This document shows positions 5,366 to 24,843 of a stretch of DNA of 29,328 bases, piece by piece; the first letter of the stretch is position 1, and every line of letters begins with the position of its first letter. Origin of the DNA: a virus; IMG/VR virus record IMGVR_UViG_3300044675_000304, positions 1 to 29,328 of that record, one strand, 5' to 3'. Made by a program: the position numbers and the translations under genes. Below the pieces are notes generated by a model that searched no databases, was not told where the DNA came from, and saw only the letters and a list, made by a program, of their open reading frames with translations.

Positions 5366-5835
5366 GTTTGTTTAATCCTTGGGTGATCCTTGGCATCGTC
5401 ATGGCGGTGCTGTCATCATTTGGCGGTGGATACTTCAAGGGTGAGCATGACGAGTACACGCGTCAGCAAGTTGAGATTGCTGCGCTAAACGCCAAGGCGA
5501 GGGAAACTGAGCAGGCGATGGCGCAAGTGGCGCAGAGTTATGGTCAGACATTACGAAAGGCGAACAATGTTGCAAAGGCTAAAGAAGACAAGTTGCGTGC
5601 TGATATTGCTACTGGCGAGCGCAGGCTGTTCATTCCTGTCAAAGCCCCCGAGTGCGCCGTATCAGCCACCAGTGATACCGCCATTGCCAGCGGAGATCAC
5701 AGCGGAACAGCATCAGCCGAACTTGACCGAAAGACTGCTGACGATCTTGTCGCCATCGCAGCCGAGGGAGACACCGCCATCCGCAAGCTCAATGCCTGCA
5801 TCCAAACCTACGAAACCATGAGGACCACAAAATGA
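5362..5835 (+). CDS. Rz: Rz-like inner-membrane spanin
   Basis: A 157-residue protein with an N-terminal membrane anchor (PWVILGIVMAVLSSFGGGYF, about 5-25) and a long charged periplasmic helix (HDEYTRQQVEIAALNAKARETEQAMAQ in part, to about residue 90), ending in a variable Cys-containing region (PECAVSATSD, LNACIQTYE). This is the i-spanin layout that links inner to outer membrane and completes lysis. A proline-rich lipoprotein gene lies entirely inside it in another frame, the usual Rz/Rz1 nesting. ATGA overlaps link it to the genes on both sides. Confidence 0.85.
   Translation: MSLFNPWVILGIVMAVLSSFGGGYFKGEHDEYTRQQVEIAALNAKARETEQAMAQVAQSYGQTLRKANNVAKAKEDKLRADIATGERRLFIPVKAPECAVSATSDTAIASGDHSGTASAELDRKTADDLVAIAAEGDTAIRKLNACIQTYETMRTTK
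5567..5821 (+). CDS. Rz1: Rz1-like outer-membrane spanin lipoprotein (nested)
   Basis: An 84-residue lipoprotein encoded in another frame wholly within the Rz-like gene. ATG 5567 is preferred over ATG 5540 because gaaagg sits 6 bases upstream. A basic start (MLQRLKKTS), hydrophobic core and lipobox ASAGC put the lipidated residue at Cys21. The mature part is proline-rich (KPPSAPYQPPVIPPLP) with a second Pro/Ser-rich tail, typical of Rz1. It would sit in the outer membrane and bind the Rz ectodomain in the periplasm to fuse the membranes at lysis. Confidence 0.85.
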   Translation: MLQRLKKTSCVLILLLASAGCSFLSKPPSAPYQPPVIPPLPAEITAEQHQPNLTERLLTILSPSQPRETPPSASSMPASKPTKP

Positions 5836-6299
5836 CTCAGTTAACCGCCAATTTCAGCCTGCATGAGATGTGCAAATCAGAAACTGCTATACGCATGGGT
5901 TTTGACAATACGCCTGATGAAGAGGCCACAGAGAATCTACGCACACTGTGCGAAAAGGTGCTTCAGCCTGTGCGTGAGCATTACGGCAAGGGCGTCAAGG
6001 TGAACTCTGCTTATCGCAGCCCTGAGTCAAATGCGGCGGTTGGAGGCTCTAAGACCAGCGACCATTGCAAGGGTATGGCAGCCGATATTGAGATACCTGG
6101 CGTCCCCAACGCGGAGCTGGCGCAGTGGATCATGGATAACCTAGAGTACACCCAATTGATTTTGGAGTTCTACACATCAGGCATCCCCGATAGCGGATGG
6201 GTTCATGTTAGCTATGACCCGAACAACCTCAAGAAGCAAGAATTAACGGCCACCAAAGTCGCAGGCAAGACTACCTACTTGAATGGCTTGGTAGCTTAA
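5832..6299 (+). CDS. Endolysin, M15-family peptidase (D,D- or L,D-carboxypeptidase fold)
   Basis: A 155-residue zinc peptidase that should cleave peptide bonds in the cell-wall stem peptide. It carries the M15 pattern: SAYRSPESNAAVGG (about 59-72), then the SxHxxGxAxD motif as SDHCKGMAAD (S76, H78, D85), and WVH with H125 as the third zinc ligand; E112 in LILEFY is a candidate catalytic acid. There is no signal peptide, so it needs the holin. It is the last gene of the lysis block and its ATG overlaps the Rz stop codon. Confidence 0.9.
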   Translation: MTQLTANFSLHEMCKSETAIRMGFDNTPDEEATENLRTLCEKVLQPVREHYGKGVKVNSAYRSPESNAAVGGSKTSDHCKGMAADIEIPGVPNAELAQWIMDNLEYTQLILEFYTSGIPDSGWVHVSYDPNNLKKQELTATKVAGKTTYLNGLVA

Positions 6300-18305: not shown

Positions 18306-18335
18306 TTGACCATCTTCACAAAACATGGTTAACAT
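18306..18335 (+). promoter_or_regulatory. Promoter for the regulator/replication operon
   Basis: TTGACC (18306-18311), an 18-base spacer and TAACAT (18330-18335). The predicted start is at about 18342, directly at the regulator ATG 18343, so the mRNA would be leaderless. There is no Shine-Dalgarno motif before this ATG, which fits. Confidence 0.5.
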
Positions 18336-18342
18336 ACTCCAC

Positions 18343-18582
18343 ATGAAAACGATTTCACAAGAAGCACTCCACGCCATAAGGCACAAAGTTGAATGCGCTG
18401 GCTACAAGATGTCTGATGTCTGCCGAGTCGCAGAGATCGACCAGGCGCAAGTATCCCGCTGGATGAGTGGGACCACAGAGCCACTATACGGCAGCGTGAT
18501 GCGCTTGGATCAGGCTGCTGACGCTTTGGTATCAGCTCGCCTCACAGTCCTCAACAAAGCCATGGAGGACGCCGTCAAATGA
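18343..18582 (+). CDS. Cro/CI-like helix-turn-helix regulator
   Basis: A 79-residue protein read from ATG 18343; an in-frame ATG at 18325 lies inside the predicted promoter. Helix-turn-helix at about 22-46: KMSDVCRVAEIDQAQVSRWM, then SGTTEP. The recognition helix QAQVSRWMSG is typical of the lambda repressor-like fold. There is no peptidase or dimerisation domain, so it is Cro-sized. It opens the replication operon and faces the minus operon across the control region, so it probably governs the switch between them. Its stop overlaps the next gene (ATGA). Confidence 0.75.
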   Translation: MKTISQEALHAIRHKVECAGYKMSDVCRVAEIDQAQVSRWMSGTTEPLYGSVMRLDQAADALVSARLTVLNKAMEDAVK

Positions 18583-21077: not shown

Positions 21078-23126
21078 ATGCAAGCAGAACAAATAGCCAA
21101 GACGCTCGGCAACGCGAAGAGAGCCAACGGCCAATGGGTAGCGTCATGCCCAGTACCATCACATGGCAAAGGCAACGGCGACAAGAATCCAAGTCTCAGC
21201 GTACACATCGATGACGAGGGCAAGCCACTTTTCCATTGCCATGGTGGCTGCACTCAGGAGTCAGTCTTCCAAACCATCAGGGATATGCAGCTACTGCCCG
21301 AGCTGGAAGAGCGACCCGATCCACTCGCCAACATCAAGCCATTGCCTAAAGTGGAGTTCCAGCAGGAATGGCAGTATCAGGACGAGGACCGCGTCACAGT
21401 CTTTGTCAAGCACCGACTGCGCGTAGGGGAGTCTGGAAAGACTTATAGGCTCTACAAAGTTGATAGTGACGGCAAGCGCTACCCTACGCTGGGTGACGCA
21501 AGGATCGTCCCTTACAAGCTGCCCGAGCTGCTGGACGCGAAGACCGCAGGCAGGATCATCTATCTCGCGGAGGGCGAAAAGGCTGTGGACGCGCTGATGT
21601 CACTCGGCGTGGTGGCGACCACCGCGCACAGTGGCGCAGGGCATTGGCCAGAAGCGATTACCGAATACTTTGCTGGCGCTAATGTGGTGATCCTCCCAGA
21701 CAACGATCTGAGTGGCTGGTCATACGCTCGCAAGGCAGCAGATGCCATCCTGCCCATCGCCAAGGCGCTCAAGGTAGTTGACCTCAGACTGCAAGAGCAG
21801 GGCGATGACGCATATGAGTTCATTGAGGCAGGCGGCGGCAGGGCAGAGCTGGCGGCGTTGGTCAAGGCGGCGCCAAAGATAACCAGCGTGGATGATGTAA
21901 CGATACCCGAAAGACTGCAGGCGATACAACAAATACCGCCAACTGTAGACATGGTGGCGACAGTTGCACCAGCAGAGGACATCGCCAAAGAGTTCGCGCC
22001 TGACCCGCCAAAAGAGGCAGACAAGCCAAAGCCAGTCAAGACCATCAAGATTGAATCTTGGGACACCATTCAGGATGAGCCAGTCGAGTGGCTGATTGAG
22101 GGTGTCATCCCCAAAGGATCATTCACGGCGTTGTATGGACCGCCAGGCTCATTCAAGTCGTTCATCGCCCTAGACATTGCCGAGGCCATAGCCACAGGCC
22201 GCACATGGATGGGCAAAGAAGTAAAGCAAACAGGCGCGGTGCTGTACTTGGCCGGTGAGGGCTTTGGCGGTATCGGCGCAAGGATCAAAGCCTGCAAGAT
22301 GCACCACCAAACCGAAGATGGAGCGCCAATCTACATAGTGCGCCACCAGCTCAACCTCAGATCCAGCGCAGAGGACTTCAATGCCTTGATGATGGCCGTA
22401 GTCACGCTGGTGGAGCAGACAGGCATGGAATTCAGCCTCGCCATTGTGGACACACTCGCCAGAGCCTTTGGCGGCGGCAACGAGAACAGCTCAGAAGACA
22501 TGGGTGCGTTCATTACGGCTATGGGCAAGGTTCAGGAATTCCTCAACTGCGCCTTGATGGTGCTGCACCACAGCGGTAAGGACGCCGCCAAAGGACTGCG
22601 CGGCCATAGCAGCCTGCTTGGCGCTGTGGATACAGAGCTGGAGCTGCTGCGCTTTGATGAGCAGATGAAAGGCGTCCTCACCATCAGCAAGCAAAAGGAT
22701 GGCGCAGACAACGAGCGATTTGGCTTTGAGATGGTGGAGGTAGAGATCCGGCCAGCAGGCTTGGGACTGACAGAGCCAGTGGTCAGCTTGGCGGTGCAAG
22801 CCAGCGACTCAGCCGTCAACGACATACCCAAAAAGGCAGGCAAGAGCAACGCGGGAAGTGGCAAGAATCAGCGACTGGCGATGCAATGCTTGGAGCGAAT
22901 GGTCAAAGAGCATGGAGTGCCAAAGTACATCGATGGTTTACAACGCCATGCGATCAAGTTGGAGCTGTGGAGGCAGGAATTATGGTCAAAGATGGGGTGT
23001 ACTGATGATGATAAAGCCTCATTCAAGATGACATGGAAACGCGCAAAGGACGACTTGCAGAAGTCAGGCGAGGGAGATATCAGAGATGACTATGTGTGGC
23101 TTCAGTTCAAAAAAGATGACTTTTAA
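21078..23126 (+). CDS. Primase-helicase (zinc finger, Toprim, RecA-like ATPase)
   Basis: A 682-residue replication protein in three parts. Residues 20-60: CHC2-like zinc finger (C24, H29, C54, C58; FHCHGGC). Residues 155-215: Toprim primase core (IYLAEGEKAVDAL with E165, VVILPDND with D208 and D210). Residues 340-560: RecA-like ATPase (Walker A GPPGSFKS 354-361, E394 in LAGEG, Walker B LAIVDT 454-459, HHSGKD 497-502). About 600-682 looks like a winged helix. It would unwind DNA and prime the fork; a polymerase must come from the host or outside the window. No strong ribosome site is seen. Confidence 0.9.
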   Translation: MQAEQIAKTLGNAKRANGQWVASCPVPSHGKGNGDKNPSLSVHIDDEGKPLFHCHGGCTQESVFQTIRDMQLLPELEERPDPLANIKPLPKVEFQQEWQYQDEDRVTVFVKHRLRVGESGKTYRLYKVDSDGKRYPTLGDARIVPYKLPELLDAKTAGRIIYLAEGEKAVDALMSLGVVATTAHSGAGHWPEAITEYFAGANVVILPDNDLSGWSYARKAADAILPIAKALKVVDLRLQEQGDDAYEFIEAGGGRAELAALVKAAPKITSVDDVTIPERLQAIQQIPPTVDMVATVAPAEDIAKEFAPDPPKEADKPKPVKTIKIESWDTIQDEPVEWLIEGVIPKGSFTALYGPPGSFKSFIALDIAEAIATGRTWMGKEVKQTGAVLYLAGEGFGGIGARIKACKMHHQTEDGAPIYIVRHQLNLRSSAEDFNALMMAVVTLVEQTGMEFSLAIVDTLARAFGGGNENSSEDMGAFITAMGKVQEFLNCALMVLHHSGKDAAKGLRGHSSLLGAVDTELELLRFDEQMKGVLTISKQKDGADNERFGFEMVEVEIRPAGLGLTEPVVSLAVQASDSAVNDIPKKAGKSNAGSGKNQRLAMQCLERMVKEHGVPKYIDGLQRHAIKLELWRQELWSKMGCTDDDKASFKMTWKRAKDDLQKSGEGDIRDDYVWLQFKKDDF

Positions 23127-23140
23127 TGGCTTGTTTGTTA

Positions 23141-23169
23141 CTTTGTTACCCCAAAACAAGGTAACAAAG
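23141..23169. repeat. Inverted repeat of the iteron unit (left)
   Basis: CTTTGTTACC (23141-23150) and GGTAACAAAG (23160-23169) are perfect 10-base complements around a 9-base A/C-rich loop. No T run follows, so it is not a typical terminator. Confidence 0.85.
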
Positions 23170-23302
23170 TTATGTGTTCCCATTACTTTTATAGATTGCG
23201 ATAATTGAATGGTAGCAATAAATGCAAATGCAAAGATCTATCAGGTAACAAACAGGTAACAAACAGGTAACAAATGGTAACAAACAAGGGAAAAGGTAAC
23301 AA

Positions 23303-23340
23303 GTAACAAACCGAGAGTCTAGGACTCGGAGGTTTGTTAC
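23303..23340. repeat. Inverted repeat of the iteron unit (right), with nested palindrome
   Basis: GTAACAAACC (23303-23312) pairs with GGTTTGTTAC (23331-23340). Inside it CCGAG (23311-23315) pairs with CTCGG (23325-23329), so two alternative hairpins share the CC/GG bases. The next gene's ribosome site follows 20 bases later. Confidence 0.8.
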
Positions 23341-23372
23341 CGACCCTCAGCCTGTTTTTAAGGAGAAAAGAA

Positions 23373-24053
23373 GTGGCAACGAAGAGAACAGCAAACAAGC
23401 ATCCAATGGTGGAGAAGCCAAGTCCAAAGGCAGATCCTTGGACGATTCATGTGCAATCGAAACTGGTGGAGTTGGAGTCGGTTAAAGCCGCCAGCGACAG
23501 GAAATGGGGAGAAAACCGACTGACTACTTTAGTAAGCAGTGAGTTGAGGGAGAAGTTTTGGATTCAGAACAGCAGACTGCATCAGGCGATGGAGTTCAAA
23601 GATCGGGCGAAGTTCGATTCCAGCTTGGCGGGAATGATCAGGGCGTACAACGTACTGGATCAGTGGGCAACCGAAGAGGGATTGGAGCCAGCGTCATCCA
23701 TTCCTCGGATTGAGTGGGAGATGCAGAATGGTCAGACCATGGTGATCGTGCGAACAGTCAATGAGGCAGTGGCGATTCAGACTCAGCGTCAGGACTTATC
23801 GAATCACCACATCTGGTCAATGCAGGAATTAGAAGCATTGCTGGCTGATGAACGTATGCAGGCAGTGATCAAGATCAAGGCGCTTGTGCCAACAGCACAG
23901 CTCACCAGCTTCAAGCCAACATCAGAGTTCAAGCTCGGCGGTGCAACAGGCTTTGATGACTTTGAAAACGATCTGACATTCAGCGACAATGACACCATGG
24001 AATACAAATTTAATTCCGCACAGGCAGAAAGGTTCAAGAATGGCTCAATTTAA
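23373..24053 (+). CDS. Hypothetical protein between the two origin-like regions
   Basis: A 226-residue protein from GTG 23373, which has aggag 7 bases upstream; an in-frame TTG at 23334 lies inside the right inverted repeat. The N-terminus is basic (ATKRTANKHPMVEKPSPKAD). A helical domain follows (LVELESVKAASDRKWGENRL, LVSSELREKFWIQNSRLHQA, MIRAYNVLDQWATEEG), then a mixed domain and a Phe/Asp/Asn-rich acidic C-terminus (GFDDFENDLTFSDNDTMEY). I know relatives next to small terminase genes but no function. It could bind the adjacent repeats; this is untested inference. Confidence 0.7.
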   Translation: MATKRTANKHPMVEKPSPKADPWTIHVQSKLVELESVKAASDRKWGENRLTTLVSSELREKFWIQNSRLHQAMEFKDRAKFDSSLAGMIRAYNVLDQWATEEGLEPASSIPRIEWEMQNGQTMVIVRTVNEAVAIQTQRQDLSNHHIWSMQELEALLADERMQAVIKIKALVPTAQLTSFKPTSEFKLGGATGFDDFENDLTFSDNDTMEYKFNSAQAERFKNGSI

Positions 24054-24132: not shown

Positions 24133-24564
24133 ATGCCTGGCAACCCAAAGCGCAGGAAAGACATTGCATTCCTCAATGAGATGCCTGAAGAGATGATCTT
24201 CAGCATGGTTGAAGCTGGCAAAAGCATTGCCGACATATGCGTGAGCCTAGGCATCAGCAAGCGTGCGCTAGACGATTGGATTGAGGAAAACGATCATGGT
24301 GCTATGATTACACGCGCGCGTGTGCGTGCCGCCGATCTTATGGCGTGTGACACGATCAAGATAGCGGATGACATGGATGTCGATCATCCGCAGCGCGATG
24401 TCCAGCGCATCCGCACTCGCCAGTGGCTGGCCGAGCGATGGGATCAGAAGACTTATGGCTTACAAAAGGCGCAGCAGATCAACATCAACGTGCAAGACCT
24501 ACGCATGGCCGCACTGCGCCACGTTGAGGTGATCGATGACTTATCCACAGAAAAAAGCGCATGA
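24133..24564 (+). CDS. terS: Terminase small subunit
   Basis: A 143-residue protein that recognises phage DNA for packaging. Helix-turn-helix at about 30-52 (GKSIADICVSLGISKRALDD). The middle helix (ARVRAADLMACDTIKIADD) and RDVQRIRTRQWLAERWDQK..YG match BPP-1-type small terminases, where this part makes the oligomer core. The C-terminus is a short tail that would contact the large subunit. gaggggt provides the ribosome site. A perfect DnaA box (24541-24549) overlaps the last codons. The large terminase gene follows after 279 non-coding bases. Confidence 0.85.
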   Translation: MPGNPKRRKDIAFLNEMPEEMIFSMVEAGKSIADICVSLGISKRALDDWIEENDHGAMITRARVRAADLMACDTIKIADDMDVDHPQRDVQRIRTRQWLAERWDQKTYGLQKAQQININVQDLRMAALRHVEVIDDLSTEKSA

Positions 24565-24734
24565 TGCACACATTGCCCTGTGGACAACTGCAAACTGCCT
24601 GTTTATTGGGCAAAACAGACGGAGTTATCCACAGTTTGGTTAACATAATAGTGATTGTATTAAACCGATTATGTAAGGTTCATGTAAGAAAGCATATAGA
24701 TCAATGACTTACAGATGCATCGACCTGTGGATAA
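24541..24734. other. Cluster of four DnaA boxes with AT-rich segment (oriC-like)
   Basis: Three perfect boxes TTATCCACA lie at 24541-24549 (+), 24625-24633 (+) and 24726-24734 (-), and a one-mismatch box TTGTCCACA at 24579-24587 (-). Each is followed by G, giving the extended form TTATCCACAG. Bases 24634-24715, between boxes 3 and 4, are strongly AT-rich and hold TGTAAG twice (24672, 24683) and once inverted (24708). This is the makeup of a DnaA-dependent origin: initiator boxes beside an unwinding element. No gene fills 24565-24843. Confidence 0.8.
24636..24663 (+). promoter_or_regulatory. Weak promoter candidate upstream of large terminase
   Basis: TTGGTT (24636-24641), a 16-base spacer and TATTAA (24658-24663). 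It is the best rightward sigma-70-like pair in the gap, right beside DnaA box 3. It could drive the terminase-portal operon. The match is modest (3/6 and 4/6). Confidence 0.3.
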
Positions 24735-24749
24735 CTTTGCAGCCGTTTA

Positions 24750-24771
24750 CTGGCAGCCAGGCGCTGGCAGC
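24750..24771. repeat. Short direct repeat and palindrome in GC-rich patch
   Basis: CTGGCAGC occurs at 24750-24757 and 24764-24771, and GCCAG-GCG-CTGGC (24756-24768) is an inverted repeat between them. It is followed by a very GC-rich stretch with C and G runs to about 24820. Its position just before the large terminase gene makes a packaging (pac/cos) or replication site conceivable. Confidence 0.4.
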
Positions 24772-24843
24772 GGCCTGCGCGATGACCCCCCCTTTGCTCG
24801 CGGCGGCGGGGGCGGCTGTAGCTGCACCTAAACACATATCGCC

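Follow-up and report, generated by a model that had tools for sequence, protein, structure and literature searches.

A class-variable iteron array behind a TOPRIM-RepA primase-helicase gene, very probably the replication start site of a bacterial virus

In the SaPI Rep/ori system and in SCCmec with its Cch2 protein, short iterons lie directly 3' of the helicase gene and are bound by the C-terminal domain of the helicase (PMC7581432), and in the PLE satellites of Vibrio cholerae a DNA-binding domain varies in step with the origin iterons and is exchanged together with them as one module (PMC8263062). The alpha protein of P4, whose origin contains repeats, unites a TOPRIM-type primase, a helicase and a winged-helix origin-binding domain in one polypeptide, RSF1010 possesses a RepA-family helicase, iterons and the stem-loop priming sites ssiA and ssiB, and ORF904 of pRN1 is a primase-helicase with a C-terminal winged helix and an essential stem-loop directly behind its gene (all PMC4234260). 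The initiators of related lambdoid phages also read different iterons (PMC8022706), but the phage described here differs from them, as in the lambdoid O/ori system the iterons are located inside the O gene, O is neither a helicase nor a primase, and the reader is N-terminal (PMC4488673).

The window, by which the whole analysed stretch of 29,328 nucleotides from IMG/VR virus record IMGVR_UViG_3300044675_000304 is meant, contains a primase-helicase gene followed by an array of short repeats and a hairpin. The features are listed below, with the iteron copies taken from a motif scan and their mismatches counted against the unit GGTAACAAAC.

21078-23126, + strand: TOPRIM primase / RepA-type (AAA_25) helicase, 682 aa, proposed initiator (Pfam, PHROG, profile)
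22857-23105, + strand: C-terminal winged-helix domain, aa 594-676, proposed iteron reader (class covariation, AlphaFold)
23004-23066, + strand: recognition helix alpha-3, aa 643-663, with residues 651 and 654 (AlphaFold, class information)
23133-23142, - strand: iteron copy, one mismatch
23141-23150, - strand: iteron copy, one mismatch
23160-23169, + strand: iteron copy, one mismatch, forming the left inverted pair with 23134-23147
23170-23243, no strand: AT-rich stretch, 70% A+T, belonging to the long form of the gap and absent in most relatives
23244-23253, + strand: iteron copy, exact
23255-23264, + strand: iteron copy, exact
23266-23275, + strand: iteron copy, one mismatch
23276-23285, + strand: iteron copy, exact
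23295-23304, + strand: iteron copy, two mismatches
23302-23311, + strand: iteron copy, one mismatch, 5' arm of the hairpin
23312-23328, + strand: conserved hairpin core CGAGAGTCTAGGACTCG, with six core pairs invariant in 29 aligned sequences
23332-23341, - strand: iteron copy, exact, 3' arm of the hairpin

The primase-helicase matches Pfam AAA_25 (4e-40) and PHROG primase/helicase families including DNA primase, as well as RSF1010 RepA (1g8y) in a profile comparison (E 2e-6), and its zinc-finger residues C24/H29/C54/C58, the TOPRIM motifs EGEK (165-168) and DND (208-210) and the Walker A motif GPPGSFKS (354-361) are invariant. It resembles P4 alpha in the TOPRIM-type primase domain, to which these invariant motifs and the PHROG DNA primase matches point, but the helicase of P4 belongs to another superfamily, the helicase here being of the AAA_25/RepA family. 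With RSF1010 the locus shares the RepA-type helicase core, the iterons and the stem-loop; RSF1010, however, has separate RepA, RepB' and RepC proteins, whereas iteron reading, helicase and primase are predicted to be fused here in one ORF. In the SaPI and SCC systems the primase is likewise separate, while here the RepA-type helicase is fused to the TOPRIM primase, and pRN1 differs in having an archaeal-type primase, an SF3 helicase, a larger stem-loop and no iterons.

The C-terminal domain was modelled with AlphaFold, using 45 relatives, as a winged helix with a mean pLDDT of 80 (mostly above 90 in the core), consisting of helices at residues 594-612, 628-639 and 643-663 with beta strands between and after them. 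A profile search of this domain against solved structures gave no match, and the winged-helix fold rests on the model, since a Foldseek search of the PDB returned nothing significant, the best hits being CRP-type winged helices (E 0.056); the C-terminal winged-helix origin-binding domain of P4 alpha may have a counterpart in this predicted domain, which has no significant PDB match.

Ten units matching GGTAACAAAC with at most two mismatches were found in the window, all inside 209 bp at 23133-23341, and beyond the array there is a single site with one mismatch, at position 2116. Nine occurrences of the inner 8-mer GTAACAAA were counted in the 29,328 bases, always within 23134-23340, compared to 0.76 expected, and none of 100 shuffles reached nine. 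The ten-unit array that the original prediction placed behind the primase-helicase gene is therefore far above chance, although several of its units are imperfect and one of the ten has two mismatches. The four direct copies described at a spacing of 10-11 bases were found as well, at distances of 11, 11 and 10 bp, with further copies in both orientations, so that the array shows the direct repeats, at least three in number and separated by about a helical turn, that are looked for in an iteron origin. As for the flanking inverted pairs, said to have perfect 10-base arms, the right one (23303-23312/23331-23340) is indeed perfect over 10 nt and encloses CGAGAGTCTAGGACTCG, but the left one (23134-23147/23155-23168) is imperfect, being 93% complementary over 14 nt. 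The AT-rich stretch expected between the clusters is present between the left and the central one, adjoining the iterons; due to its absence in most relatives, it can hardly be the general unwinding element.

Two protein scans of IMG/VR resulted in 133 loci, some of them overlapping on one contig, and the gap with both of its ends was found in 122 sequences, the window included, which represent 65 distinct gap sequences. A repeat array is situated in the same gap behind the primase-helicase gene in all 65 of them, i.e. the repeats are present in the relatives with the same replication genes, and the suggestion of an iteron array at a probable origin is supported by this comparison. In most relatives the gap is about 130-160 nt long and lacks both the AT-rich stretch and the left cluster, the window representing a long form. 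The repeat unit differs among the relatives, and nine classes were distinguished: A GGTAACA (the window), B GGTTACA, C GCGACA, D ATCAGAA, E ATCGGAA, F GGAGACA, G CGTTAC, H GGGAACA and I CTTACAA, of which E and G have few sequences behind them; array sequences named beside GGTAACAAAC are GGTTACAAAC, GGGAACAAAC and GCGACAAA. Inside a locus, the direct repeats and the hairpin arms mostly agree, with mixed exceptions such as L246 and L062.

No prophage or host copy was detected in GTDB genomes by a primase search, nor any by one hairpin pattern, which covers part of the iteron classes only. Among INPHARED phages no close relative was found, only remote helicase relatives, one of which, MW202711, possesses the helicase with no such hairpin or iterons behind it.

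In 50 of 109 contexts a LexA-like box, CTGT-N8-ACAG, marks the beginning of the array, compared to about 0.2 expected and 65 occurrences in 766 kb overall; it overlaps or closely trails the primase stop codon, for example in L136, L179 and L184. It is not present in the window, and in the relatives its position suggests a putative SOS control near the origin.

In order to find which protein follows the iteron class, sliding identity was calculated for 75 distinct primase-helicases, and the within-minus-between-class difference was 0.01-0.06 up to about residue 580 and 0.20-0.33 after it. The larger covariation set comprised 90 primase-helicases (effective number about 33). The partial Mantel r between residues 590-676 and the class was 0.54, with 0 of 500 permutations as high, compared to -0.11 to 0.12 for all the other segments; the class of the nearest neighbour matched in a fraction of 0.92 of cases by residues 590-676 and 0.35-0.49 by other segments (21% expected), and parsimony gave 10 class changes on the tree of the C-terminal domain but 38 and 39 on the trees of two other domains. 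Shared ancestry was removed incompletely, as segment 1-100 has a small yet permutation-significant value (0.12). The C-terminal 90 or so residues are the sole part of the primase-helicase co-varying with the iteron class, and it is through this domain that an adjacent, specifically matched initiator gene, another mark of an iteron origin, is present in the statistical sense.

Three candidate readers had been named in the original prediction, and it is the primase-helicase whose C-terminal domain tracks the repeats by covariation. The product of 23373-24053, which had been put forward as the main candidate initiator, has no link to the class, with within-minus-between identity of -0.02 to +0.02 at every position, and the Cro-like protein (18325-18582) has to be rejected too, since its identity is 94-100% in many relatives whose class differs. 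The terminase small subunit TerS, considered in addition, fails as a reader, since it is 64-65% identical to the window TerS in L007 and L029, which are of the same class, and 98-99% identical in L011 (class B), L036 (class C) and L043 (class D).

Within the domain, class information peaks at columns 654 and 651, both in the third (recognition) helix. Residue 651 fits the base preceding ACA in 79 of 79 sequences from classes A, B, C, F, H and I, Met or Val being paired with A, Thr with T and Lys with G. With four changes on the tree, below what significance needs in the phylogenetic test, and with class G breaking the rule (L047 has Lys with T), this pairing is a lead only.

When phages of different classes are compared pairwise, DNA identity is 84-97% in the first 1700 nt of the primase gene, 27-61% in its last 300 nt or so together with the gap, and again 80-99% in the next gene. 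Judging by these alignments, the putative reader domain and the array are exchanged jointly as one cassette of about 450 bp between phages that are otherwise about 90% identical. The swap of a module with the remainder of the protein conserved is reminiscent of PLE RepA_N/ori; the PLE initiator, however, is of the RepA_N type, its reader is N-terminal and its modules fall into two groups, whereas here the presumed reader is at the C-terminus of a primase-helicase and there are nine classes. The likeness to SaPI and SCCmec consists in iterons right behind the helicase gene and in C-terminal specificity, indicated here by covariation, with initiator and helicase predicted to be one protein.

The right inverted pair folds as a hairpin around CGAGAGTCTAGGACTCG, with a CGAGAGTCT/GACTCG core, on both strands. 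The six core pairs do not vary in 29 of 29 aligned hairpins from eight iteron classes, an invariance which is partly due to selection as the alignment was built from matches to the core pattern, whereas C-G, T-A and A-T all occur as the closing pair, and the outer arms vary with the iteron class yet remain paired. Pairing was found in 93.3% of cells compared to 81.1% in shuffles, and the covariation score was 0.291, compared to no more than 0.094 when slid. In class-G loci and in L009, the 3' arm of the core deviates by one base. When IMG/VR was scanned with the hairpin core alone, the same primase-helicase was located upstream in 109 of 122 contexts, the remaining ones being mostly cut-off contigs or chance matches. 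P4 is not known to possess a conserved iteron-flanked hairpin, and compared to SaPI and SCCmec the window phage adds this hairpin as well as a separate DnaA/IHF-like module, which is located further downstream.

23373-24053, + strand: 226-aa protein of no known family, strongly conserved, without iteron-class signal
24133-24564, + strand: terminase small subunit (terS), Sf6-like (Pfam 2.5e-13)
24541-24549, + strand: DnaA box TTATCCACA, exact, conserved in relatives
24579-24587, - strand: DnaA box-like TTGTCCACA, near-match, present or exact in most relatives
24625-24633, + strand: DnaA box TTATCCACA, exact, invariant in the alignment of relatives
24699-24711, + strand: IHF-like site GATCAATGACTTA amid the DnaA boxes, conserved in the alignment
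24726-24734, - strand: DnaA box TTATCCACA, exact

The gap is followed by the 226-aa gene and the genes for the small and the large terminase subunits, in this order. The 226-aa protein has no Pfam or PHROG match, and its AlphaFold model (pLDDT 60) is too poor for a fold search. The terS gene is itself exchanged among the relatives independently of the class, with the two levels of identity given above (e.g. L007 and L029 versus L011 and L036). In L004, L014 and L059 no recognisable TerS is found downstream of the 226-aa gene and TerL is remote (30% identity) and shifted in position, which indicates that the packaging genes were replaced behind the same origin region.

The DnaA cluster reported 1.2 kb from the array is real, with three exact boxes and one near-match, and is conserved: nearly all relatives have three or four boxes between terS and terL, and each locus having both terS and terL contains at least two exact boxes there and no exact box elsewhere. 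DnaA boxes near an iteron origin are thus found, but 1.2 kb off and outside the array. The terS-terL gap of the window (24535-24843) has the DnaA boxes, the IHF-like site and an AT-rich stretch in common with the relatives; the IHF-like site fits WATCAANNNNTTR in several of them, and the window version is off at the first base. The module is invariant with respect to the iteron class and resembles datA/DARS2/oriC-type modules; it might act as a helper, in timing or as a second origin. In view of this invariance, the two-part origin that the original prediction placed around the gene at 23373-24053 remains a hypothesis.

IMG/VR was also searched with a 20-base piece of the window array, and besides the relatives three unrelated phage groups were found to possess several GGTAACA copies beside TATATA-rich DNA. 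Such GGTAACAAA arrays are located in L345 (about 430-690, - strand), L346 (about 5810-6040), L348 and L350. Those in L345 and L346 lie directly 3' of differently built primase genes, Toprim_3 and PHROG 26824, respectively, whose products do not match the C-terminal domain of the window protein. The same short site therefore recurs behind non-homologous phage primases, probably by convergence.

Taken at the level of the locus, the array is very probably the replication start site of this bacterial virus, and it is likely, given the comparisons of sequence, that it constitutes the phage's own origin, with the winged-helix domain at the C-terminus of the upstream-encoded primase-helicase as its reader. 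Conservation of place, class covariation, cassette exchange and hairpin covariation are established, and from there we infer binding, loading, opening, priming and cooperation with DnaA. Several copies of the primase-helicase would attach to the direct iterons, which follow each other at about one helical turn, and to the inverted pair, the RepA-type ring would load and then open the DNA, and the exposed strand would fold the hairpin, a possible start point for primer synthesis by the TOPRIM domain, as judged by the ssi sites of RSF1010 (PMC4234260). Host factors would probably assist or time initiation through the separate DnaA/IHF-like module in the terS-terL gap, this being the least certain part. 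Cumulative GC skew, with a weak local minimum near 20.7 kb, was dropped as an origin mark as it follows gene orientation.

The best surviving alternative, which we nevertheless regard as unlikely, is that the array is an autoregulatory operator bound by the primase-helicase and controlling the next gene and the terminase genes, with replication starting at the DnaA/IHF cluster between terS and terL. It is in keeping with the array forming the leader of the gene at 23373-24053, with the LexA-like box at the array start in many relatives and with the high conservation of the DnaA/IHF cluster; a promoter-like site at 23177-23205 would also fit, but the number of such sites is inside the shuffle range. 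A helicase-primase would, however, be an odd repressor, in unrelated phages the same iterons follow other primase genes, and in known origins direct iterons or a stem-loop follow a helicase gene whose product binds DNA through its C-terminus (SaPI and SCCmec, PMC7581432; pRN1, PMC4234260).

It is highly improbable that the gap acts as an RNA element, i.e. as a transcript leader in which the hairpin is a terminator, a processing site or a regulatory structure and the repeats are by-products. The gap transcript does fold far better than shuffles (z -4.25) and the conserved hairpin shows covariation, but there is no T-run immediately 3' of the hairpin, no Rfam match was obtained for the gap RNA, and RNA structure alone does not explain direct repeats changing with the C-terminal domain of a protein. 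As little credit can be given to the idea that the phage is plasmid-like and uses the array for incompatibility, partition or copy control: plasmid iteron arrays often also serve as copy-control elements, but the co-varying protein is a helicase-primase, and no ParA/ParB-like gene was found among the proteins scanned with Pfam and PHROG in a non-exhaustive search. Least probable of all is that TerS, encoded nearby, recognises the array as a packaging (pac) site; the array position about 0.8 kb upstream of terS could speak for this, but it is contradicted by TerS identity that ignores the class.

Returning to the array as an origin, the best reading by analogy is that it would work like SaPI Rep/ori, PLE RepA/ori or P4 alpha. 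As far as these tools show, and measured against open-access papers, three things are new: such a layout in combination with a protein of the TOPRIM-RepA kind, how many specificities one shared backbone carries, and the conserved hairpin, at which the fused TOPRIM-RepA enzyme might start its primers. More tentatively, and with doubt prevailing, a portable cassette of about 450 bp comprising winged helix, iterons and hairpin might be swapped among closely related aquatic phages to change origin specificity, with a residue-to-base code at 651 and the class-independent hairpin as a single-strand priming site.

An origin-directed nuclease was proposed as a driver of diversification in PLE satellites (PMC8263062), and ectopic origin copies can cause arrest in lambda (PMC4488673). 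The phages described here offer a natural series of at least nine matched domain/site pairs on otherwise near-identical genomes, some of the pairs being one base apart (GGTAACA, GGTTACA, GGGAACA), which makes both the stepwise change of winged-helix specificity and the drivers of origin diversification directly testable.
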